Source: Geothrix limicola (GTDB lineage Bacteria; Acidobacteriota; Holophagae; Holophagales; Holophagaceae). From it: 64,000 nt of DNA. Positions 23,565 through 39,665 of the stretch are shown piece after piece. The notes below the pieces were generated by a model. It was not told the origin of the DNA and searched no databases. It worked only from the letters and a program-made list of their open reading frames with translations. The stretch's first letter is position 1, and the number at the start of each line of letters is the position of its first letter. Where the stretch lies: positions 744,001-808,000 of the forward strand of contig NZ_BSDE01000001.1 of NCBI RefSeq assembly GCF_030268085.1, written 5' to 3'. The translations under genes and the position numbers were made by a program.

Positions 23565-26249
23565 TCATTTGGTCATCAGATCCTTCAAGAGGGTCTCATC
23601 GGTGATCCTTCCCACGGGGTAGACCTTCACCCGTTGATCCCAGTAGGGGGACTTGGCATAGAACCAGTTGAGGATGGCCTCGGGATTGGCCGCAAAGGCC
23701 TTGTCTTCGGACTTCCTCTGCTCGAATTCGGCCTTGAGGGCTGGAGATTGCTTCAGCAGCTCTCTCGCCATGCCCTCCATCACGTAGCTCTCGGCGTATT
23801 CCTGCTGTTTGAGGGCGGAATTAAGCTGGCGGGGCGTTAGCACCAACGTGTGTTGGGTGGGCCCCGGCAGGAATGTTGTGGGTTTGCCCTGCTCCCATGC
23901 TTCGTGTCCATCGCGGTAATGCGGCGAGAGGGGGTTGCCGCATTGCCCGCAGGGCATGTGCAGGGTTCCATCGGCCTCGTGGCCCGGCGAAACGACCATC
24001 CTCAAGGAGGCGCCCATCGCAGGCCACTGGACGCGCGGCATGTCGTTGTCCCCCGGCAACGGGTGATGGTCCATGTCGAGGAACCAGCCCACCATCGGAA
24101 TGGCACGGCTCAGGGGATGGCGGATCTGGGTGAGGTTCCGGCTACCCAGCGTGGCCTGGGCAAGGCTGCGGCTGTCCTTGAGAAAGTAGTCGATGGCCCG
24201 GTCGACGGCGGCAAGCATGGCCTCGTTCCAGCTCGCGTAATTTGCGTCCAGCAGGTGGGCCGGCTGCTCCGTCGCCAACCGCCAAAGGAATCCTTCATCC
24301 TGGGGAAGAATGGGATCGAAGGTCGGGTCGGCCTGCTTGCATGGCGCGAGGAGGGATTCGATCACCAGCTCTTCGAAGAATACGTGGAAGCCGCGTGCCA
24401 TCCGGTAGCCCGCCGAATCGATGGAGGCGTGGCCCGTCCAGTTGGTTTCCAGCAACTTTCGGAACTCCGCGCGCTGGGGCTTACCCTTCAACGACTCGGC
24501 CGTCAGGATCTTCAAGGCCAGGTCCCGCCATCGCTGGAGGAAGAGGGAACGGTCGTCCAGCTGGATGGCCAGCAGATCCCGCTCGTCGAGGCGTGCTTTC
24601 TGGAAGAGGTCATCCCGGATCTGGCGCGCGCGGGCGCCCAGCACATAGCCGCCGTCGCCGAGTTTGCGCAGCATCTCGCCGCTGGCGGGACGCGCATTGG
24701 CCGTCCACAGCCGTCCGGCCGGCGGATCCAGGAGGGTGGGGATTTCCGGGGAGCTGAGCCATCCATCCCAGCCGCGGGAGCCGTCGGCCCAGCTCACGGG
24801 AACGCGGCCGTCGAAGCCCTTGCGGCGGGGGATTCGGCCCATGATGGTCCAGCCGATGCGCCCCGCCGCATCGGCGATCACGCAGTTCTGGGGTGGGATG
24901 CCCGAGGCGTGGGCAGCTTCGATGGCGGCTTCGAGCGTCTCCGCCCGCGACATGCCCAGCAGGTTCATGTTGGTGGCTTTGGGCCGATGCGCGGTCCATG
25001 AGAAGGCCCTCAGGCGTCCCTTGTGATCGGTGCCCATGACGGGCCCCCAGATCGTCGACTGGATCTTCAGGAGCACGTCCGCCGCGCCCTTGACCCTGAT
25101 CCGCTCCTCCGTGGTCTCGATTCTGCGGGGCCCATCGGGTGTTCGGTAGGTGCCGGGCTGGGCCGGGTCGGTTTCAAGGAGGACGATGTCGCTGTAGTCG
25201 CCGTAGCTGTTGGTGAAGCCCCAGGCGACTTTGCCGTTGCTGCCGATCACCACGAAGGGCGCTCCTGGAAGGGTGGCGCCGGTGACCGAGCGGGCCTGGC
25301 CATCGGGATCCTGCCAACGCAGCGAGGCCCGGTACCAGGTGTTCGGCACGCCGATGTTGAGGTGGGGATCGTTGGCGAGAATGGCCCTGCCATCGGCCGT
25401 GGCCATCGCGGCCACCGCCCAGTTGTTGCTGCCCAGGGCCACATCGGAAGCGCCCTTGAACCAGCCGGACACCTTGGTCGGAGGGGCCTTCCGAAGGTCC
25501 ATGACATCGGGGCCGGGCAGGGGCGGGTCAGGGAACATGCCGCCGTCGAGGGGTGCGTCCCACGCGGTCCCAGGAGGGGCGATGGCCTCGAACAGCTCGC
25601 GGGGGAGGAGGTCCTGCATGAGGCCGAGGTTGGATTCCCTGCTGCCGCTCCGATTGCTCAGGTCGCTGTACATGGAATACATCACGAGGAAGGTGTCCTC
25701 GGGCAGCCAGGGGCTTGGATCCACCCTCAGCGCCGCGTATTCGAAGGGTTTGGCCCGCAACGATGACAGGCCTTCGTTCACGCCTTTGGCATAGGCTTCC
25801 AGGGCGGCGCGAATCTCCGGAGTGGCGGCCGCGGTCACCTCTTTGGCGCGGAGCCGGAACTGATGGAGGCGGCTCTCCCGGTCGGCCTTGACGAGGGCCG
25901 GGCCGATCAGCTCCGCGAGTTCTCCGGCGGAGTTCCGGCGGAGGAGGTCCATCTGGAAGAAGCGGTCCTGCCCATGGGCGAAGCCCAGGCCGAAGGAGAC
26001 CTCCGCAAGGTTCCGGCCGCTGATGGTGGGAATGCCGAGGCCGTCGCGGGCGATGGTGACCGGCGCCGCGAGTGTGGCCACGGTGATGGTGCCATCGAGC
26101 CTGGGCAGGCTGGCGCGCATGCGCGCGTAGAACCAGGCGGACAGGGCCGCCACGAGCACCAGGACGAGGCCGGCGGCCCCGGCAATGGTGCGGAAGAGCC
26201 ATCGCGCCCAGCGGCGCGAGGGATGGGTCTGGTTTGGGTTGGTCTGCAT
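23565..26249 (-). CDS. Penicillin acylase-family (Ntn) hydrolase, membrane-anchored
   Basis: An 894-residue protein with an N-terminal anchor (IAGAAGLVLVLVAALSAWFY). The alpha-subunit part has DGLGIPTISGRNLAEVSFGLG and GQDRFFQMDLLRR (about 60-105). The self-cleavage site is ALGSNNWAVAA with the nucleophile at Ser274; NDPHLNIGVPNTWY and SNGKVAWGFTNSYGDYSDI follow as in the beta subunit. Such enzymes hydrolyse penicillins, acyl-homoserine lactones or other amides in the periplasm. ATG 26249 is preceded by GAGG; an in-frame ATG at 26261 is possible, and a much longer open frame to 26438 is not supported. A quorum-quenching role is only a possibility. Confidence 0.9.
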   Translation of the reverse strand: MQTNPNQTHPSRRWARWLFRTIAGAAGLVLVLVAALSAWFYARMRASLPRLDGTITVATLAAPVTIARDGLGIPTISGRNLAEVSFGLGFAHGQDRFFQMDLLRRNSAGELAELIGPALVKADRESRLHQFRLRAKEVTAAATPEIRAALEAYAKGVNEGLSSLRAKPFEYAALRVDPSPWLPEDTFLVMYSMYSDLSNRSGSRESNLGLMQDLLPRELFEAIAPPGTAWDAPLDGGMFPDPPLPGPDVMDLRKAPPTKVSGWFKGASDVALGSNNWAVAAMATADGRAILANDPHLNIGVPNTWYRASLRWQDPDGQARSVTGATLPGAPFVVIGSNGKVAWGFTNSYGDYSDIVLLETDPAQPGTYRTPDGPRRIETTEERIRVKGAADVLLKIQSTIWGPVMGTDHKGRLRAFSWTAHRPKATNMNLLGMSRAETLEAAIEAAHASGIPPQNCVIADAAGRIGWTIMGRIPRRKGFDGRVPVSWADGSRGWDGWLSSPEIPTLLDPPAGRLWTANARPASGEMLRKLGDGGYVLGARARQIRDDLFQKARLDERDLLAIQLDDRSLFLQRWRDLALKILTAESLKGKPQRAEFRKLLETNWTGHASIDSAGYRMARGFHVFFEELVIESLLAPCKQADPTFDPILPQDEGFLWRLATEQPAHLLDANYASWNEAMLAAVDRAIDYFLKDSRSLAQATLGSRNLTQIRHPLSRAIPMVGWFLDMDHHPLPGDNDMPRVQWPAMGASLRMVVSPGHEADGTLHMPCGQCGNPLSPHYRDGHEAWEQGKPTTFLPGPTQHTLVLTPRQLNSALKQQEYAESYVMEGMARELLKQSPALKAEFEQRKSEDKAFAANPEAILNWFYAKSPYWDQRVKVYPVGRITDETLLKDLMTK

Positions 26250-26436
26250 GCTCGGCCTCATGTGGAATGGCCCGCGCGGAATCTCGCAACGGCCATCAAC
26301 AGCCACCCGAAGCAAATCCGCAAGGGAGGCGGATCCGCGTCGGTGGGTCAGAAAGGAAGGCTTTGGATTTCTTGCTTCGGGATACTCTCGTCTCACCATG
26401 GGGTCAAGAGAACAAGGCCGATCCGGTGGATGGCTC

Positions 26437-26467
26437 AAAAAAAAACGGGGCGACCGTGGTCGCCCCG
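26437..26467 (-). terminator. Strong Rho-independent terminator of the SPFH gene
   Basis: A perfect 10-bp stem CGGGGCGACC / GGTCGCCCCG is followed on the minus strand by nine T. It separates the SPFH gene from the penicillin-acylase gene. Confidence 0.92.
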
Positions 26468-26488: not shown

Positions 26489-28537
26489 CTAACTCAGTCC
26501 ACCCTTGCTCATGTCTTTGCGAAGGGCCGCCTTGAAGGCTTCCGCCTCCGGGTTCGCCGCGGTCGCCGTCGTCACGCCCGCCAGCTGTCCGGCCTTCTCG
26601 CTGAGCAGCAGGCCCAGCAGGCTTTCGATGAGGCTGCCGCCGCCCTTGTCGCCACCGCCCATGTGGATCTTGGGGACCACATCCACCTGGGACTTTTCGA
26701 TGGCTTCGGCGAAGCGGCTCATGACCTGCTGCACCAGCTGGAACTGCGGGCCGCCGTAGGCACGGACCTGCTCCTCGATGGCCATGGCCTGGGCGATGCC
26801 CACGCGCGCGGCCTGCTCGGCCTGGGCCTCGGCCATGACCTTGATGCGCTTGGCCTCGCCTTCGCCCATGAGGCGCACCTTCTCGGCCTCGGCGCCCGCG
26901 AGGGTCTGGATCTGTGCGGCCTGCTGCTGGGCCTTGGCGTAGTCGGCCTTGCCCTGGTTGCTCTGCACCTCGATGCCGATGGCGGATTCCGTGAGCAGGG
27001 TCTGCTGCTTGGCGCGGGCTTCGGCTTCGCGGAGTTCGCGTTCCTTCACCGCGGCGCTCTGCTGGCGACCGTAGGTCTCCACCTGCTCATCGGCGATCTG
27101 GCGGCTGCGCAGCTGCACGAGGATCTGCTCGATCTGCCCGCCGGGCGCGCCGCTGGTGGGCGTGCCGATGAGCACTTCCTGAAGTTCGAGGTTGTACTGG
27201 GCGAACTTCTCCTTCATTTGCACGCCGCTCTGCTCCTGGATGGCGCTGCGGTCCTGGATGAGCTGGATGAGGGTGCGGGTCTGGCCGATGTTCTTGAAGT
27301 AGGCGCTGACCATGGGATCCAGCGTCTGTTCCACGAGCTTCTTGATATCGCCGAAGCGCTGGATGACGAGGGGCGCCTTGCGGTAGTCGATGTGGACCAC
27401 CACAGATAGCGGCAGGCTGGGCTCGAAGGCATCCTTGGTGATGAGGCTCACTTCGGTCAGGTTCTCGTCGAACTTGTGGCTTCCCACCTCGCCCTTCGTC
27501 CACTTGAGGATGAAGTTCGTCGTCGGCACCATGAGCACCTTGCCGGCGTAGGTGTTGAAGGCGTACTTGCCGGGCAGCAGGGGGTCGCTCCACACGCCGC
27601 GGTTGCCCTTGGCCACCAGCTCGCCATGGCGGTATTCCTGGCCGCTGATGTCGGCGCCGATCTCGCCGGTGTAGCTCACCACCACGCCCACCGTGCCCAC
27701 TTCCACGACGGTCTTGGGAATCATCTCCACCGTCGCGAAGAGGCGGTTGATGTAGTAGGTGCCCTCCACCAGCACCTGGTGTTGGCGTCCGCGCTGGCCC
27801 CCCGCCAAGAGGAACTTGTCCGCGTCCTGGAAGTTGTTGTGGTACGTCGAGGGCTTCTCCGGATCCTCCCCGACGGTCGGGGCGATGATCTCGCCGCTGC
27901 CAAGGCTGGGACCATCCTGGACGGTGACGATGCCCACGGCGTCGTCCGCGCCGCGGATGATGACCGGCCGCCAGCCTGCGCGCTCGGCGATGATGGCGCT
28001 CATCTTCTGGAAGGTCTCCAGCTCGCTGCGGTCGAGGGGCAGGTAGTAGAGCTGGTCTTCGGTGAGCACGACGAACTGGGCGAGGTTGATGGCATACATG
28101 CCTTCGCGCAGGATCTGGCGCTGCGGACCTTTCTGGCCGCCGCTCTGAAGGAAGGCCACCACATCCTGGAAGTCCGCGCCGTGGGCGTTGCTGGCGAGCG
28201 CCTGGGTGGGCGGTAGGTCCTTGCCGTCACGGGCGAAGACGTAGCCGATCTTGCCCTGGGGAATGGTCACGAGAGGCATCTTGTGGATGCGGTACTGGAA
28301 GGGCGTGAGCAGATGCCAGCCGCCGCGGAGGAGCTGGGGCTGGAAGCCGGCCTCGCCGTTCAACGCGATGAGCCCCGTCTTCACCGAGCCCTTGCCGCTG
28401 ATGAGCTTCTCAACGATGCCCACGCGGTTGTTGGGGATGTAGCGGATCCACTTGCTGAGCAGCAGCAGCGCGAAGGCGATGCCGAGAAGGGCCAGAAGGG
28501 TCAGGCCCGGGTTGGCAGAAAGCCAGGAGAAGTCCAT
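26489..28537 (-). CDS. Flotillin-like SPFH-domain membrane protein
   Basis: A 682-residue membrane-scaffold protein. One N-terminal helix (LTLLALLGIAFALLLLSKWI) is followed by a long beta-rich region. Related modules recur as RGGWHLLTPF, REGMYAINLAQF, VEGTYYINRLFA and LPGKYAFNTYAG, the last leading into the SPFH core. A long Ala/Gln/Glu-rich coiled coil (about 490-610, for example EREAEARAKQQ-like heptads and AEAEKVRLMGEGEAKRI) drives oligomerisation. The C-terminus is Gly-rich and polar. GGAG lies before the ATG, and a TACACT hexamer sits 27 bp upstream. It probably forms large ring- or raft-like assemblies; no NfeD partner gene is adjacent. Confidence 0.9.
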   Translation of the reverse strand: MDFSWLSANPGLTLLALLGIAFALLLLSKWIRYIPNNRVGIVEKLISGKGSVKTGLIALNGEAGFQPQLLRGGWHLLTPFQYRIHKMPLVTIPQGKIGYVFARDGKDLPPTQALASNAHGADFQDVVAFLQSGGQKGPQRQILREGMYAINLAQFVVLTEDQLYYLPLDRSELETFQKMSAIIAERAGWRPVIIRGADDAVGIVTVQDGPSLGSGEIIAPTVGEDPEKPSTYHNNFQDADKFLLAGGQRGRQHQVLVEGTYYINRLFATVEMIPKTVVEVGTVGVVVSYTGEIGADISGQEYRHGELVAKGNRGVWSDPLLPGKYAFNTYAGKVLMVPTTNFILKWTKGEVGSHKFDENLTEVSLITKDAFEPSLPLSVVVHIDYRKAPLVIQRFGDIKKLVEQTLDPMVSAYFKNIGQTRTLIQLIQDRSAIQEQSGVQMKEKFAQYNLELQEVLIGTPTSGAPGGQIEQILVQLRSRQIADEQVETYGRQQSAAVKERELREAEARAKQQTLLTESAIGIEVQSNQGKADYAKAQQQAAQIQTLAGAEAEKVRLMGEGEAKRIKVMAEAQAEQAARVGIAQAMAIEEQVRAYGGPQFQLVQQVMSRFAEAIEKSQVDVVPKIHMGGGDKGGGSLIESLLGLLLSEKAGQLAGVTTATAANPEAEAFKAALRKDMSKGGLS

Positions 28538-29584: not shown

Positions 29585-31795
29585 ATGTTTGACATCGAAG
29601 CCTCCCTCGACAGCCGACTGTTGGCCGTGCCCCGGAACCGCCCGACGGTGGTGTTTCCCGAGGCCCTGGATGCCCGCACCCTCGAAGCGGCCTGCTTCCT
29701 CGGCCGCTTCATCCGCCCCGTCTTCCTCGCGTCGGAAGGCGATGTGCGCGCCCTGGCGACCCGCGACCTGGGACACCTCGGCGAAGACCGCGTGGCCTAC
29801 ACCCTCTCCGAAAGTGCGTACGTGCATCCGGCCTCGCGCCCGGACCTGATCGAGACCTTCGCCGCCGCCAGCGTAGCCTGGCATCAGGAGCAGGGGCGAC
29901 CCCTGAGCCTGGACGAGGCGCGGGCGCAGGTTTCCGAACCGGGCCTCTTCGGCATCTGGGCCGTGAAACTGGGACATGCCGACATGGTGGTGGGCGGCGC
30001 CATCCACGAGCCCAAGGCCTTCTTCCGGCCCATGGTCGATCTTCTCGTGCAGCGCAGCGTGGCCTGCGAGGCGGGCATCTTCGTGCTGCCGGACGAACAT
30101 CCCGAGGAGGTCTACCCGCACAACATCGTCGTGTTCGGCGACGTGGGCGTGAACGCCACCATGACGCCGCGGATCCTGGCGGAAGTGGCCGTGGGAACCT
30201 GCGCCGTGGCTCGCGACCTCATCCCCGAGGACGTGCTGCCCGAGATCCGCTGCGCCATGGTGTCCTACTCCAACCGGGGCAGCGACGAGGGCCCTTCGCC
30301 CGAGCTGGTGAGGCAGGCCGCCGACCTGGTGCCTGAGATCCTCGCCGAGCGCGTGAAGCACGCGGCGCGCTACGGGACCATCCACATCCGCGGCGAAGTG
30401 AAGGTCAGCGTCGCGCTGTCGCGCCGCTCCGCCGGGCTCTACCACGCCGACGGCCTGCCCTGGGAGGGCGGGCCCAACGTGATCGTGTGCCCCAACCTGG
30501 ACATGGGCAACCTGCTCTACCACCTCTACGCCACGCGGTTCCCGGATGCGCGCAAGTTCCCCGTGATGTTCGGCCTCTGGTTCCAGGGCGTGGACCTGGC
30601 CATGGACTGCACGCCCGAGGACATCCGCCTGGCCGTGAAGGCCTCCGTCATGCGCCTGCACCACTATGGCGAATGGAAGCGCACGCCCAAGGACACCTTC
30701 TTCCGCCGCCATCGGGTGCTGGTGCTGAATCCCGGATCGACCTCGACCAAGACCTCCGTCTTCGAAGGGGACGAGGAACGCTGCACCGAGGAGATCCAGC
30801 ATCCCGCCGAGGCGCTCAAGGGGTTCGAGGGCCGGCCCATCACCGAGCAGTTCAATTTCCGCAAGGAGGCCGTGCTGCGCTTCCTGGCGGACCAGGGGCT
30901 CGGCCTCAAGGACATCGACGCGGTGGCCGGACGCGGCGGTCTCCTGCGGCCCATTCCGCACGGCACCTGGAATGTCGGCGAATCCATGCTGGAGGATCTG
31001 AAGGCCGGCAAGCGCGGTGAGCACGCGTCGAACCTGGGCGCCCTCATCGCCGCCGAGCTGGTGGCAGGATCCGGCAAGCCCGCCTTCATCGTGGATCCGG
31101 TGGTGGTGGACGAGGCGGATCCCAAGGTGAAGATCACGGGCCTGAAGGAACTGCCCCGCCGAGTCATCAGCCATGCCCTCAACCAGATCGCCACGGCCCG
31201 CCGCTACGCCGAGGAGCACGAGACCTTCTACGAGCGCATCAACGTCATCGTGGCCCACATGGGTGGCGGCATCACCGTCGGCGCGCACCGCAAGGGCCGT
31301 TACATCGACGTGAACAACGGGCTGGACGGGGAGGGGCCCTTCTCGCCCCAGCGCACGGGCAGCCTGCCTCCGGGCCAGCTCATCGACCTCTGCTTCTCCG
31401 GCAAGTACACGAAGGCCGAACTGAAGCTGCTGAACAAGGGACGCGGCGGCCTCATCGACCTGCTGGGCACTGCCGACATGCGCGAAGTGGAGCGCCGCGT
31501 GGAGGCCGGCGACGCCGAGGCCGCCCTCGTCTACGAAGCCATGACCTACCAGATCGCCAAGGGCATCACCGCCCTCGTGCCCGCCTTCGAGGGCGAAGCC
31601 ATCGACGCCATCCTGCTGACGGGCGGCATGGCGCGATCGGCCAAGCTGGTGGGCGAGCTGGGCCGTCTCACGGTGGCCCTGGGCTGCGGCGTGAAGGTCT
31701 ACCCCGGCGAGAACGAGATGGCCGCCCTCGCCAAGGGCGCCCTGCGCGTGCTTTCCGGTCGCGAAGTCGCCAAGGACTACTCGGCCGCGAACTGA
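29585..31795 (+). CDS. Fused phosphotransacylase (Pta-like) - butyrate kinase
   Basis: A 736-residue two-domain protein. Residues 1 to about 370 are a PTA_PTB transacylase: GIWAVKLGHADMVVGGAIHE, NIVVFGDVGVNATMTPRILA, AMVSYSNRGSDEGPS and CPNLDMGNLLYHLYATRF align with phosphotransacetylases. Residues 378-736 are a complete butyrate kinase of the acetokinase family: LVLNPGSTSTKTSVFEG, VAGRGGLLRPI, GEHASNLGALIAAELV, PRRVISHALNQIATARRYAE, VAHMGGGITVG, NNGLDGEGPFSPQRTGSLP and LLTGGMARS. The fusion would carry acyl-CoA to acyl-phosphate to ATP in one polypeptide. Most organisms have separate ptb and buk. No stop or frameshift lies at the junction. The acyl chain (acetyl, butyryl, branched) cannot be told. 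Confidence 0.93.
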   Translation: MFDIEASLDSRLLAVPRNRPTVVFPEALDARTLEAACFLGRFIRPVFLASEGDVRALATRDLGHLGEDRVAYTLSESAYVHPASRPDLIETFAAASVAWHQEQGRPLSLDEARAQVSEPGLFGIWAVKLGHADMVVGGAIHEPKAFFRPMVDLLVQRSVACEAGIFVLPDEHPEEVYPHNIVVFGDVGVNATMTPRILAEVAVGTCAVARDLIPEDVLPEIRCAMVSYSNRGSDEGPSPELVRQAADLVPEILAERVKHAARYGTIHIRGEVKVSVALSRRSAGLYHADGLPWEGGPNVIVCPNLDMGNLLYHLYATRFPDARKFPVMFGLWFQGVDLAMDCTPEDIRLAVKASVMRLHHYGEWKRTPKDTFFRRHRVLVLNPGSTSTKTSVFEGDEERCTEEIQHPAEALKGFEGRPITEQFNFRKEAVLRFLADQGLGLKDIDAVAGRGGLLRPIPHGTWNVGESMLEDLKAGKRGEHASNLGALIAAELVAGSGKPAFIVDPVVVDEADPKVKITGLKELPRRVISHALNQIATARRYAEEHETFYERINVIVAHMGGGITVGAHRKGRYIDVNNGLDGEGPFSPQRTGSLPPGQLIDLCFSGKYTKAELKLLNKGRGGLIDLLGTADMREVERRVEAGDAEAALVYEAMTYQIAKGITALVPAFEGEAIDAILLTGGMARSAKLVGELGRLTVALGCGVKVYPGENEMAALAKGALRVLSGREVAKDYSAAN

Positions 31796-31901: not shown

Positions 31902-32804
31902 TTAGGCCAGCAACGCCGCCAGCGCGATGGAGCTGAGCTTGGTCTTGGCGCTGTCACCGCGGCTGCTGAGGACGCAGGGGACGCGGGCACCCATGACGAG
32001 GGCGGCGATCTCGGCGCCGCCGAGCTTGGTGCCGGCCTTGTAGAACACGTTGCCCGCTTCGATGTTGGGGAAGAGCAGGCAGTCGGCGTCTCCGGCCACG
32101 GGGCCGCCCAGGCCCTTGATCTTCGCCGATTCGGGATCGAGGGCGCCGTCCAGGGCCAGGGGCCCGTCCACGAGGGCACCCTTGATCTGGCCCCGGTCGG
32201 CCATCTTCGAGAGCATGGCGGCATCCGCGCTGGAGCTCATCTTGGGCATCACCTGCTCGGAGGCCGCCAGCACTGCGACCTTGGGCTGATCGATGCCGAG
32301 CGCCTTTGCGGTCTTCACGAGGTAGTTCAGGATGGCCACCTTTTCCTTGAACTCGGGTTCGGGGATGACGGCCACGTCGCCCGCGATGAGCAGCTTCGGA
32401 TGCCCAGGATGTTCCATGACCGTCACGTGGCTGAGGATGGCGCCGGGATCCAGCAGGCCCTGCTCCTTGTTCAGGATGGCGCGCATGTACTTGTCGGTGC
32501 TGAGCAGGCCCTTCATCAGCAGGTCCGCCTCGCCCGCGCGCACCATGCCGACGGCCTTGGTGGCGGCCTCGGTGTCCGTGGCGGCGTGGATCATGCGGAA
32601 GCGCTCCTTGGGCAGGTGGTGCTCCTCGCAGACCTTCGTCATGACCGGCTCGTCGCCCACGAGGATGGCCTCCACCAGACCCGCTTCCACGGCGGCGTTC
32701 ACGGCCTCCATGGAATGGGCGTCGTTGGCCCAGGCCACCACCAGGCGCTTGCGGGGGCGGTCCTTCACGGCGCGGAGAAGCTCGTCGAGGCTGTTGATGC
32801 GCAT
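31902..32804 (-). CDS. ptb: Phosphate butyryltransferase-type phosphotransacylase
   Basis: A 300-residue stand-alone phosphotransacylase of the Ptb branch, which exchanges CoA for phosphate on short acyl groups. Typical blocks are LVVAWANDAHSMEAVNAAVE, ADLLMKGLLSTDKYMRAIL, LSHVTVMEHPGHPKLLIAGD, VLAASEQVMPKMSSSADAAM, GALVDGPLALDGAL, and the C-terminal CLLFPNIEAGNVFYKAGTKL. AGGATC precedes the ATG. It is placed tail to tail with the fused transacylase-kinase, separated by the inverted repeat. The pair supplies two different transacylases for one kinase, suggesting two acyl-CoA substrates. Confidence 0.94.
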   Translation of the reverse strand: MRINSLDELLRAVKDRPRKRLVVAWANDAHSMEAVNAAVEAGLVEAILVGDEPVMTKVCEEHHLPKERFRMIHAATDTEAATKAVGMVRAGEADLLMKGLLSTDKYMRAILNKEQGLLDPGAILSHVTVMEHPGHPKLLIAGDVAVIPEPEFKEKVAILNYLVKTAKALGIDQPKVAVLAASEQVMPKMSSSADAAMLSKMADRGQIKGALVDGPLALDGALDPESAKIKGLGGPVAGDADCLLFPNIEAGNVFYKAGTKLGGAEIAALVMGARVPCVLSSRGDSAKTKLSSIALAALLA

Positions 32805-36229: not shown

Positions 36230-36298
36230 CTATGCCCCCTCGCGCGACCGAATAATCGCGATGGCGGGGTGAATGATGGGAAGCCGGGAAGGTGTCAT
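36230..36298 (-). CDS. Isoleucine-rich leader peptide of ilvA
   Basis: A 22-residue peptide MTPSRLPIIHPAIAIIRSRE followed by GA and TAG. Five of the 22 residues are Ile, clustered as II...I.II. It ends 25 nt before the attenuator hairpin on the same strand. This is the classic layout of amino-acid attenuation: when charged tRNA-Ile is short, the ribosome stalls in the Ile codons (ATC and ATT) and the terminator cannot form. A weak purine run near the ATG may act as ribosome site. It is shorter than any ORF-caller threshold. That the regulated enzyme is IlvA, the first step to isoleucine, supports the reading. Confidence 0.72.
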   Translation of the reverse strand: MTPSRLPIIHPAIAIIRSREGA

Positions 36299-36317
36299 GA
36301 AGCTGAACCGAAAAGCC

Positions 36318-36326
36318 AAGCTAGCA
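36318..36326 (-). promoter_or_regulatory. Extended minus-10 of the ilvA leader transcript
   Basis: On the minus strand TGCTAGCTT (TGn plus TAGCTT). Transcription would start near 36311, about 13 nt before the leader-peptide ATG. Confidence 0.45.
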
Positions 36327-36425
36327 CCCGGCCCGGGGATGCACAAGCCGATCGGTCCTGGCGGGGGCCATGCGCGGCCCTTGGATCCGGATGGGATCCC
36401 GGTGTTGATTCCTCGTGAAGCGAGG

Positions 36426-36431
36426 TATATT
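36426..36431 (+). promoter_or_regulatory. Promoter of the tricorn protease gene
   Basis: TATATT is a good minus-10, with TTGATT at 36405-36410 as a possible minus-35 at 15-bp spacing. The leader is about 17 nt with CCGGAG as ribosome site. Confidence 0.45.
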
Positions 36432-36455
36432 GCTTCATCCGTTCCGGAGTCTTTG

Positions 36456-39400
36456 ATGATGCGCATCCGTGCTTCCGCCCTGCTTCTCGTCGCTGGCGCC
36501 CTGGTGGCCCAGGACCGAGTCCCCCGCTTCGTCAGTTCGCCGGACGTGAACGGCGACCGCGTGGTGTTCACGTGGGAGGACGATCTCTGGCTCGGATCCC
36601 TCAAGGGCGGTCAGGCCCGGCGCCTTACCACCCATCCGGGCCTGGAGACCGCGGCCCGCTTCAGCCCCGACGGCAAGTGGATCGCCTTCACGGCCCAGTA
36701 CGACGGCGTTCCGCAGGTCTACGTGATGCCCGCCGAAGGCGGCGCGCCCAGGCGCCTCACCTGGGGCGGCGCGGCCACGGTGCAGGGCTGGACGCCGGAC
36801 GGGATGAAGGTCCTCTACAAGACCGTCGCCGATTTCGACCGCCGTCCCGTGGAGCGCTTCTTCACGGTGGATCTCGAAGGCCACCAGCCCGAGGCGCTGG
36901 CCGTGCCCCGCGGCGTGCAGGGCTCCCTGTCGCCCGATGGCCGGAGCCTCGCCTACAACGCGAAGGGCCACGTCGAGTATTACTGGAAACGCTACAAGGG
37001 CGGCGACCACCAGGACCTCTGGTTGGCGGATCTGAAGCAGGGCACCTTCACCAAGCTCTCGGACTACGTGGGCCGCAACGGCGCACCCATCTGGGCCGGC
37101 GCCAAGGTGATCTTCGAATCCGACCGCGGCAGCACGGGCATCACCAACCTCTATGCGGTGGATCCCGCCACCAAGGCCGTGGAGCCCCTGACGGACCTGA
37201 AGGACTTCGACGCGCAGCAGCCCAGCAGTGATGGCCACACCGTCGTCTTCGTGCAGGGCGGCCGGCTGCAGGCCCTGGACCTGGCCACCAAGGCCCTGCG
37301 CACGGTGCCCATCACCACCTCCAGCGATGGCTGGAAGGCGGCGCCGCGTTCGCTGAACCCCAAGGACTGGATCCAGTCCATGAGCATGACGGGCGGCCAG
37401 GCGGTCTTCGAAGCCCGAGGCGAGGTGTTCCTCGTGCCGACCGACGCCACCAAACCCACCCAGAACCTCACCAAGACCCCGGGCGTGCGCGAGCGCATGC
37501 CGCGCCTCTCGCCGGATGGCAAGCGCGTGGCCTACTTCGCGGATGCCAGCGGCGACTACGACCTCTACGTGCAGCCTGTGGACGGTAAGCCCGAGCGTAT
37601 CCCCACGGGCCTGAAGACGGCCCTCTACCACCTGGAGTGGAGCCCCGACGGCACCAAGATTCTCTTCGGCGACAAGAGCTTCGCCATCTACGTCATGGAC
37701 GTGGCCACGAAGAAGCTCACCAAGGTGGACGAATCCCACGAGCTGAAGAACGACCAGTTCACCTGGGAGGTCAGCGACTACGCCTGGTCGCCGGATTCCC
37801 AGTGGGTGGCCTACAGCTTCGTCGAGCCCAACCGCAACAGCCGCATCTACCTCGCCAACCTGGCCACCAAGCAGAAGCTGACGCTGACCGACGGCTTCTA
37901 CGATTGCCTGAACCCCCGCTTCGACCTGGACGGCAGCACGCTGTATTTCCTCAGCTACAGCAATTTCCACACGCGGCTGGATCCCAGCCAGGACAACCAC
38001 ATCCAGTCCGCGCCCGTGCAGGTCATGGCCGTGAAGCTGAAGGCCGACGACAAGGCCGCTTCTTCTTCCACGAGCGTCTTCCGCATCGATGCGGCGGGCC
38101 TGACCGACCGCATCGAGCCCCTGCCGGTGAAGCCGGGCAACCTCTTCCACTTGAAGGCGGGCAAGGGCCTCGTCGGCTGGGATGAGGTGGAAGGCTGGGA
38201 TGACGGTGTGATGGAAGAGGTCTACGGGGCCCGCGGCCTTGAGAAGTGGAAGGTGCACCTCTACGATCCTGCGGCCAAGAAGGACAAGGAGGCGGTGCTC
38301 AACGATGCCGTCAGCGACTGGACCTTCGATGCCGACGGCAAGCGGATCCTCCTCCGCAAGGGGCCGAACTTCCACGCGGGTGACGTCTCGGCCGTGTTCG
38401 CTTCGAAGGCCCTGCCCGAGAAGCTGGATCTGGAGCGCATGGTCATGACAGCCGCGCCCCGTGAGGAGTGGAAGCAGATCTTCGAAGACACCTGGCGCTG
38501 GTACCGGGATTTCTTCTACGACACGAACATGAACGGCAACGACTGGAACGCCATCGGCGCCAAGTTCCGTGCCCTGCTGCCCGAGTTGAACTCGCGGCAG
38601 GAACTGAACTGGCTGCTCAGCCAGATGGTGGGCGAGCTCAACGTGAGTCACACCTATGTGAGCGGCGGCGACTTCGGCCCCGGCCGGCCCGTCCCGAGCC
38701 CGGTCTATCCGGGTCTGCTGGGGGCCGATTTCAGCGCCGAGAACGGCGTCTACAGGTTCGCCAAGGTCTACGGACCCACGGCCTATGCCCGGAACCTCAA
38801 GGCCCCCCTGGCGGATCCGGCTCCAAAGGTGAAGGAGGGCGAGTACCTGCTGGCCATCGACGGCAAGCCCCTGCGCGCGCCCGAGGTGATCCAGGCCCGG
38901 CTCCAGGTCATCAAGGGCCAGAAGGTGACGCTCACCGTGAACAGCAAGCCCACCATGGAAGGGGCGCGCACCCTGGATGTGGAGCCCGTTCCCAACGACT
39001 GGGACCTGCGCTACGAGCATTGGATCGCGGGCAACATCGCCGCCGTGGACAAGGCTTCCAACGGGCAGCTCGGCTACATGCACATCACGGCCATGACCGA
39101 TCAGAACATCGGCCAGTTCGACAAGTACTGGCGCGCCTTCCGCTACAAGAAGGGCATCGTCATCGACGTGCGCGGCAATGGCGGCGGCTGGACCGAATAC
39201 TTCATGATCGACAAGCTGGAACGCAAGCAGGTGGGCTTCAACGTGCTGCGCGGCATGGGTCCCTTCCGCTACCCCAACACTGCCTCCGATGGCCGCTACG
39301 TCTTCCTCAGCAATGAGCAGAACGGCAGCGACGGCGAAGCCTTCCTGGCCCACGTGAAGGCCCGCAACCTGGGCCCCATCGTCGGCATGCCGAGCTGGGG

Positions 39401-39665
39401 CGGTCTGGTGGGCATCGTGAACACCCAGCTCACCCTGGACGGCGGCCGCGTCGAGCAGAGCAACAACGCCTTCTACGGCAAGGAAGGGCAGTGGTGGATC
39501 GAGAACCACGGCGCCGAGCCCGACTTCACGGTGGAGAACGATCCCGCCAGCCTCCTGCAGGGCCATGACCGCCAGCTCGAAGTGGGCATCGAGACCCTGC
39601 TGAAGAATCTGAAGGAGAATCCGACGCCGAGCTTCCCGCCGGTGCCCGCCTATCCCAAGCGCTGA
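36456..39665 (+). CDS. Exported tricorn-type S41 protease
   Basis: A 1069-residue tricorn-family protease. A signal peptide (MMRIRASALLLVAGALVAQD) is followed by a WD40-like beta-propeller pair (about 25-640, blades with the pattern RFSPDGKWIAF, RLSPDGKRVAYFAD, WSPDGTKILFGD). Next come the tricorn C1 helical domain, a PDZ domain (about 755-850, VKEGEYLLAIDGKPLRAPEV) and the C2 catalytic domain. The catalytic Ser is in NGSDGEAF (Ser958) and the His in VSHTY (His732), spaced as in archaeal tricorn. Unlike archaeal tricorn it is exported, so it likely trims peptides in the periplasm. ATG 36456 (or 36459) has GGAG upstream. Confidence 0.93.
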   Translation: MMRIRASALLLVAGALVAQDRVPRFVSSPDVNGDRVVFTWEDDLWLGSLKGGQARRLTTHPGLETAARFSPDGKWIAFTAQYDGVPQVYVMPAEGGAPRRLTWGGAATVQGWTPDGMKVLYKTVADFDRRPVERFFTVDLEGHQPEALAVPRGVQGSLSPDGRSLAYNAKGHVEYYWKRYKGGDHQDLWLADLKQGTFTKLSDYVGRNGAPIWAGAKVIFESDRGSTGITNLYAVDPATKAVEPLTDLKDFDAQQPSSDGHTVVFVQGGRLQALDLATKALRTVPITTSSDGWKAAPRSLNPKDWIQSMSMTGGQAVFEARGEVFLVPTDATKPTQNLTKTPGVRERMPRLSPDGKRVAYFADASGDYDLYVQPVDGKPERIPTGLKTALYHLEWSPDGTKILFGDKSFAIYVMDVATKKLTKVDESHELKNDQFTWEVSDYAWSPDSQWVAYSFVEPNRNSRIYLANLATKQKLTLTDGFYDCLNPRFDLDGSTLYFLSYSNFHTRLDPSQDNHIQSAPVQVMAVKLKADDKAASSSTSVFRIDAAGLTDRIEPLPVKPGNLFHLKAGKGLVGWDEVEGWDDGVMEEVYGARGLEKWKVHLYDPAAKKDKEAVLNDAVSDWTFDADGKRILLRKGPNFHAGDVSAVFASKALPEKLDLERMVMTAAPREEWKQIFEDTWRWYRDFFYDTNMNGNDWNAIGAKFRALLPELNSRQELNWLLSQMVGELNVSHTYVSGGDFGPGRPVPSPVYPGLLGADFSAENGVYRFAKVYGPTAYARNLKAPLADPAPKVKEGEYLLAIDGKPLRAPEVIQARLQVIKGQKVTLTVNSKPTMEGARTLDVEPVPNDWDLRYEHWIAGNIAAVDKASNGQLGYMHITAMTDQNIGQFDKYWRAFRYKKGIVIDVRGNGGGWTEYFMIDKLERKQVGFNVLRGMGPFRYPNTASDGRYVFLSNEQNGSDGEAFLAHVKARNLGPIVGMPSWGGLVGIVNTQLTLDGGRVEQSNNAFYGKEGQWWIENHGAEPDFTVENDPASLLQGHDRQLEVGIETLLKNLKENPTPSFPPVPAYPKR

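Follow-up and report, generated by a model that had tools for sequence, protein, structure and literature searches.

A butyrate kinase fused to a Pta-derived, putative pseudo-transacylase domain in Geothrix limicola and other bacteria

Does a butyrate kinase that carries a phosphotransacylase-like domain on the same polypeptide produce its own acyl-phosphate, or has the fused domain taken on another role? The question is raised by an open reading frame in a 64,000-nucleotide stretch of the Geothrix limicola genome (hereafter the window), in which a Pta-like domain precedes a butyrate kinase (Buk) and which faces a stand-alone Ptb-type phosphotransacylase gene (Table 1). Ptb and Buk are described as separate proteins in the available portions of PMC2700814 and PMC13285125. 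The original prediction for this locus held that the fused half is a transacylase channelling acyl-phosphate to the kinase, and that the separate Ptb is an extra enzyme widening the range of acyl chains.

Table 1. Features of the fusion gene and of the neighbouring Ptb gene (positions in the window)
Feature	Positions	Strand	Details and basis
Fusion ORF, Pta-like domain and butyrate kinase	29585..31795	+	736 aa, no internal stop
Pta-like N-domain, pseudo-transacylase by sequence	29585..30712	+	residues 1-376, fold 1-366; Pfam PF01515, fold matches
K273, at acyl/CoA-contact position Gln244 of M. thermophila Pta	30401..30403	+	residue mapping, counts
Former catalytic loop DLAMDCTPED	30593..30622	+	residues 337-346; residue mapping to 1qzt, counts over 55 fusions
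Butyrate kinase domain	30713..31795	+	residues 377-736; TIGR02707, alignments
Ptb-type phosphotransacylase	31902..32804	-	300 aa; convergent with the fusion, 106 bp stop to stop; likely the true transacylase partner
Ptb Ser-Arg motif SRGDS	31950..31964	-	residues 281-285, intact

Scanning the fusion protein with Pfam placed PTA_PTB on residues 17-347 (99 bits) and Acetate_kinase on residues 539-710, and the NCBIfam model butyr_kinase (TIGR02707) matched residues 377-730 with 442 bits, above its curated cut-off of 289.1. A structure model built with 55 sequences (mean pLDDT 85.5, pTM 0.84) was used for a fold search, in which predicted residues 1-366 resembled solved Pta and MaeB-PTA chains (Z 31-35) and predicted residues 375-736 resembled Thermotoga butyrate kinase 2 (PDB 1saz/1x9j; Z 43, 46% identity). 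The ORF, the domain models and the predicted fold thus confirm that a Pta-like domain and a complete butyrate kinase share one uninterrupted frame, and the tail-to-tail position of the Ptb gene, also part of the original prediction, was confirmed as well. A promoter and terminator scan returned zero sites at the fusion gene. Exploring named bacterial genomes for the same architecture, with the N-domain as query, we obtained 93 confirmed stretches and analysed 80 loci, in 75 of which N-domain and Buk share a single open frame of 732-749 aa; four others are cut by contig ends and one (L163) carries a premature stop. The records, mostly metagenome bins with phylum labels as deposited but including several Geothrix isolates, are labelled Acidobacteria, Krumholzibacteriia, Elusimicrobia, Spirochaetales, Fibrobacter, Latescibacterota and others. 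Within the phylum, the N-domain matched at E <= 1e-25 in 36 of 396 sampled genomes, among them the stand-alone relative described below (G064) and one genome whose fusion is split over two contigs (G315). The alignment on which the residue counts are based consists of the window and 54 of the 80 loci (n = 55), leaving out 21 near-identical same-genus copies, the four loci cut at contig ends and L163. In the latter (L163:6001-8202) the fusion stops after residue 460 and the Buk part continues beyond, which may reflect an assembly error or a decaying gene.

The kinase half appears to be intact. Residues N382, R450, H558, R590 and E709 are invariant in all 55 fusions; we take these to be the ASKHA acyl-kinase active-site residues (Asn, Arg, His, Arg and Glu), with roles known from work on acetate kinase. 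In an alignment with Ack, four of these columns coincide and the Glu column does not. By its score, its retained active site and its identity to Thermotoga Buk2, the kinase half is a full member of the TIGR02707 family; it differs from stand-alone Buks in carrying the extra N-terminal domain, and the fused Buks form a clade of their own, apart from the stand-alone Buks sampled, with a stem of 0.68 changes per column. A genome-wide search showed that the fusion is the sole butyrate kinase of the source genome, which also encodes separate Pta, MaeB and acetate kinase proteins.

The N-domain belongs to the Pta rather than the Ptb branch. Its best NCBIfam matches are Pta models, the Ptb model being matched at E 1e-5 in only one of 12 members, and in the tree it groups with Pta and MaeB-PTA, apart from Ptb; this bears out what had been suggested from the window alone. 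It has the Pta fold, yet it fails the curated cut-off of the pta equivalog model by far (95.9 bits against 311.2) and is devoid of the catalytic Ser309-Arg310 pair (M. thermophila Pta numbering). The former catalytic loop aligns by HMMER, ungapped, with M. thermophila Pta 307-316 (DLSRGCSDED), and the substitutions are Ser309 to A339, Arg310 to M340 and Gly311 to D341, with Asp316 kept as D346. Not one of the 55 fusions holds both residues of the pair: 54 of them have Ala or Pro at the Ser309 position, and at the Arg310 position 49 have another residue and six have Arg. The pair is intact in all 11 Ptas examined from the same phylum. In T. pallidum Pta, according to the accessible part of PMC10194888, the mutants S314A, R315A and D321A have 0.30%, 0.07% and 14.3% of wild-type activity, respectively. 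The key transacylase residues of the fused half are therefore lost at this pair, and with the pair absent from every fusion but kept by the Ptb of 62 out of 62 loci with the motif covered (a count that includes twice-fetched records, e.g. L081/L118, L082/L120 and L077/L164, and five stand-alone Ptb-Buk loci), a transacylase that channels acyl-phosphate within the fusion is not favoured. We infer that the N-domain has no transacylase activity; some activity would still be compatible with the sequence because Asp316, itself catalytic, is kept and Arg310 is retained in the six fusions.

Fused N-domains form one clade with support of 100/100 and a stem of 3.59 changes per column. Compared with the stem of the fused Buks, this indicates that the N-terminal half changed far more than the kinase, with the reservation that the outgroups used in the trees allow only a loose comparison. 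A stand-alone Pta-like protein of 391 aa (L079:2061-3236) is sister to the fused domains with an SH-aLRT of 100, but its branch is long and its placement accordingly unsure. This relative keeps Ser-Arg and Gln244 and carries Gly at the Asp316 position; provided that it is placed correctly, the Ser-Arg pair would have been lost on the branch leading to the fusion. No second stand-alone relative was found in the 396 genomes of the phylum, in 392 genomes of the phylum of a Spirochaetales locus (L155) or in the relative's own one-genome class.

The window Ptb scored 315.4 bits against TIGR02706, below the cut-off of 410.5, and 296 bits against the related subfamily model NF006045, above the cut-off of 282. 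Among 37 same-genus genomes, 28 carry both the fusion and Ptb, seven carry neither, two carry the fusion only and none carries Ptb only, and both fusion-only genomes are cut at a contig edge; these are raw counts that ignore kinship, and neighbouring genes being lost together accounts for part of the pattern. In 25 of the 80 loci Ptb directly follows the fusion on the same strand, in 26 it is convergent and nearby, and in 29 it was unseen in the fetched stretch; of these 29, two have a weak match of 31% identity and four are contig-end fragments. Searching 25 whole fusion genomes that had no Ptb in the stretch revealed a Ptb-like gene of at least 269 bits elsewhere in 22 and none in the other three (G426, G436 and G441; completeness not given), and the control search recovered Ptb in three of three genomes with an adjacent copy. 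Neither any of these genome-wide matches nor the window Ptb itself reached the curated Ptb cut-off. The co-occurrence within the genus and the Ptb-like genes elsewhere in 22 of the 25 genomes speak against Ptb as a mere extra that widens the acyl chain range, and Ptb looks like a required partner of the fusion.

The loss of the catalytic pair was accompanied by changes in the surrounding cleft that are uniform across the fusions. All 55 fusions have Lys at the Gln244 position, where the 11 Ptas and seven MaeBs examined all have Gln, and every fusion has Asp at the Gly311 position. All 55 also keep Arg133, Asp316 and the Asp at D186, and 54 keep Asn279; at the Tyr282 position, 44 fusions have Tyr and the remaining 11 have Phe. 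Ser128 of M. thermophila Pta corresponds to P143 of the fusion. The N-domain is under purifying selection (median dN/dS 0.17; Buk, 0.15; 378 of 378 pairs, 28 same-genus sequences). Judged by these positions, the pocket is rebuilt rather than decayed.

A precedent for a Pta-fold domain in a fused enzyme is the hybrid malic enzyme MaeB. Its PTA domain is inactive as a Pta; it binds acetyl-CoA and inhibits the malic enzyme to which it is fused, as reported in the available text of PMC7902834 and PMC12704298. On balance, we favour a comparable role here: a hybrid acyl kinase in which an intact Buk would be regulated by its N-terminal, Pta-derived pseudo-transacylase in a MaeB-like manner, with Ptb making the acyl-phosphate. 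The neighbouring Ptb would convert acyl-CoA and Pi to acyl-phosphate, and the kinase half would convert acyl-phosphate to the carboxylate and ATP or, in reverse, activate a carboxylate; the analysis thus lends support to the acyl-CoA to ATP route of the Ptb-Buk type in the original prediction. By analogy, the N-domain probably binds CoA, acyl-CoA or a related phosphorylated metabolite, and binding of this ligand would adjust the kinase. Both MaeB and the fusion carry a Pta-fold domain that lacks the full catalytic set and is joined to a metabolic enzyme, but the partner here is an acyl kinase instead of a malic enzyme and the PTA domain is N-terminal instead of C-terminal. The pockets also differ: in seven of seven MaeBs the Ser128 position is Tyr and the Ser309 position Gln, with Gln244 kept, whereas the fusion has Lys at 244 and Asp at 311. 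Q683 of Bdellovibrio MaeB, an acetyl-binding residue contributed by the opposing monomer (PMC7902834, in the part available), would correspond to Gln244. In the tree, MaeB-PTA and the fused N-domain occupy two separate supported clades joined at a weakly supported fork (83/63), so that the MaeB analogy is one of logic. With Pta itself the N-domain shares the fold, family PF01515, the CoA-contact residues Arg133, Asn279 and Tyr282, and Asp316; it is set apart by the missing Ser-Arg pair, the low equivalog score and the long stem branch. The fold search, as a comparison of enzyme and sensor, ended in a tie (Pta Z 34.5, MaeB-PTA Z 34.7), and does not favour a sensor role. As a side observation, these seven MaeBs of Acidobacteriota (G000:C1:1046811-1047764 and six others, L212-L217) have lost the Pta catalytic set in a different way.

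A less likely explanation is that the fusion is a retooled bifunctional enzyme, in which the N-domain uses K273, D341 and D346 in place of Ser309 and Arg310 and passes acyl-phosphate to the kinase, Ptb being a paralogue for other chains. Fusions usually join consecutive enzymes, purifying selection on the domain is strong, D346, R148 and N309 are kept, and K273 and D341 are invariant; K273 could in principle substitute for the lost Arg. Yet Ser and Arg each matter more than 300-fold in T. pallidum Pta (PMC10194888, same portion), the pair is kept in every Pta and Ptb that we examined, and the strict co-occurrence with Ptb in the genus is unexpected for a self-sufficient fusion. Somewhat more doubtful still is a scaffold, in which the N-domain would serve solely to determine how the kinase oligomerises or to dock Ptb, and control by a ligand would play no part. 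Pta folds form dimers, the PTA domain of MaeB is the hub of a hexamer (PMC7902834, available part), and co-conservation with Ptb would fit docking, but a scaffold has no need for conservation of several former CoA and catalytic cleft residues in 55 of 55 fusions. That the gene is an artefact of annotation or assembly, produced when a frameshift or read error merged two neighbouring genes, is virtually ruled out, since 75 of the 80 loci, which come from other genomes, are fused without interruption; N-domain identities across all 80 span 50-89%.

To our knowledge, no dedicated regulatory domain is ascribed to the acyl kinases Ack and Buk, which are regarded as working near equilibrium. No description of a Pta-Buk fusion was found in the open full-text literature (titles and starts of abstracts), a scope outside which most subscription papers lie. 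The parts, and a Pta domain acting as a sensor, are already known; its use on an acyl kinase is undescribed in the literature searched. Carrying the regulated hybrid kinase one step further, we tentatively suggest that it may be a second, independent case of the Pta fold serving as the control domain of a fused enzyme: an old pseudo-transacylase on an acyl kinase, found in records labelled with many phyla, whose pocket might have been rebuilt (Lys at Gln244, Asp after the lost pair) for a ligand other than acetyl-CoA, e.g. a charged acyl-CoA or a phosphorylated intermediate, gating substrate-level phosphorylation. If so, CoA-dependent allostery as known from MaeB would have evolved from this one fold on two or more occasions, and the kinase could be switched by the metabolic state of the cell, a control on fermentation or on the activation of organic acids that could be tested directly in Geothrix and its relatives. 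We caution against annotating the fusion gene as a bifunctional transacylase-kinase.

The neighbourhood was also explored for the pathway in which the fusion acts. Ptb-Buk pairs of fermenters, including those of the HpdJ/HpdK type acting on arylacetyl-CoA, resemble the present case in having Ptb and Buk adjacent and an IOR-type enzyme in the genome, and in clostridia such pairs are fed by indolepyruvate-type oxidoreductases (PMC13285125, in its available portion). An indolepyruvate-type (IOR) 2-oxoacid oxidoreductase is indeed encoded elsewhere in the source genome. The present case differs from those pairs in that Buk carries an extra domain and in that no IOR or VOR gene lies beside the fusion in the window. 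The window neighbours, a penicillin-amidase family protein (23565-26438, minus strand), an SPFH/Band 7 protein (26489-28537, minus strand) and a tricorn-like protease (36273-39665, plus strand), have no evident link to the fusion. Among 20 neighbour ORFs of diverse loci scanned with Pfam, all were unrelated genes with the exception of an acyl-CoA dehydrogenase, and only Ptb recurs widely. The acyl-CoA dehydrogenase gene (L123:457-1794) lies upstream of the fusion on the opposite strand and may hint at the acyl substrate; its cluster spans four loci, L123 by the Pfam scan and L124, L126 and L147 by clustering. The stand-alone Pta-like relative adjoins genes for the gamma and beta subunits of a 2-oxoacid:ferredoxin oxidoreductase (L079:2061-4627). 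At another locus (L072:492-3787), a stand-alone butyrate kinase adjoins an ORF that resembles, by eye, the alpha subunit of indolepyruvate oxidoreductase, which would suggest aryl-acid fermentation there.
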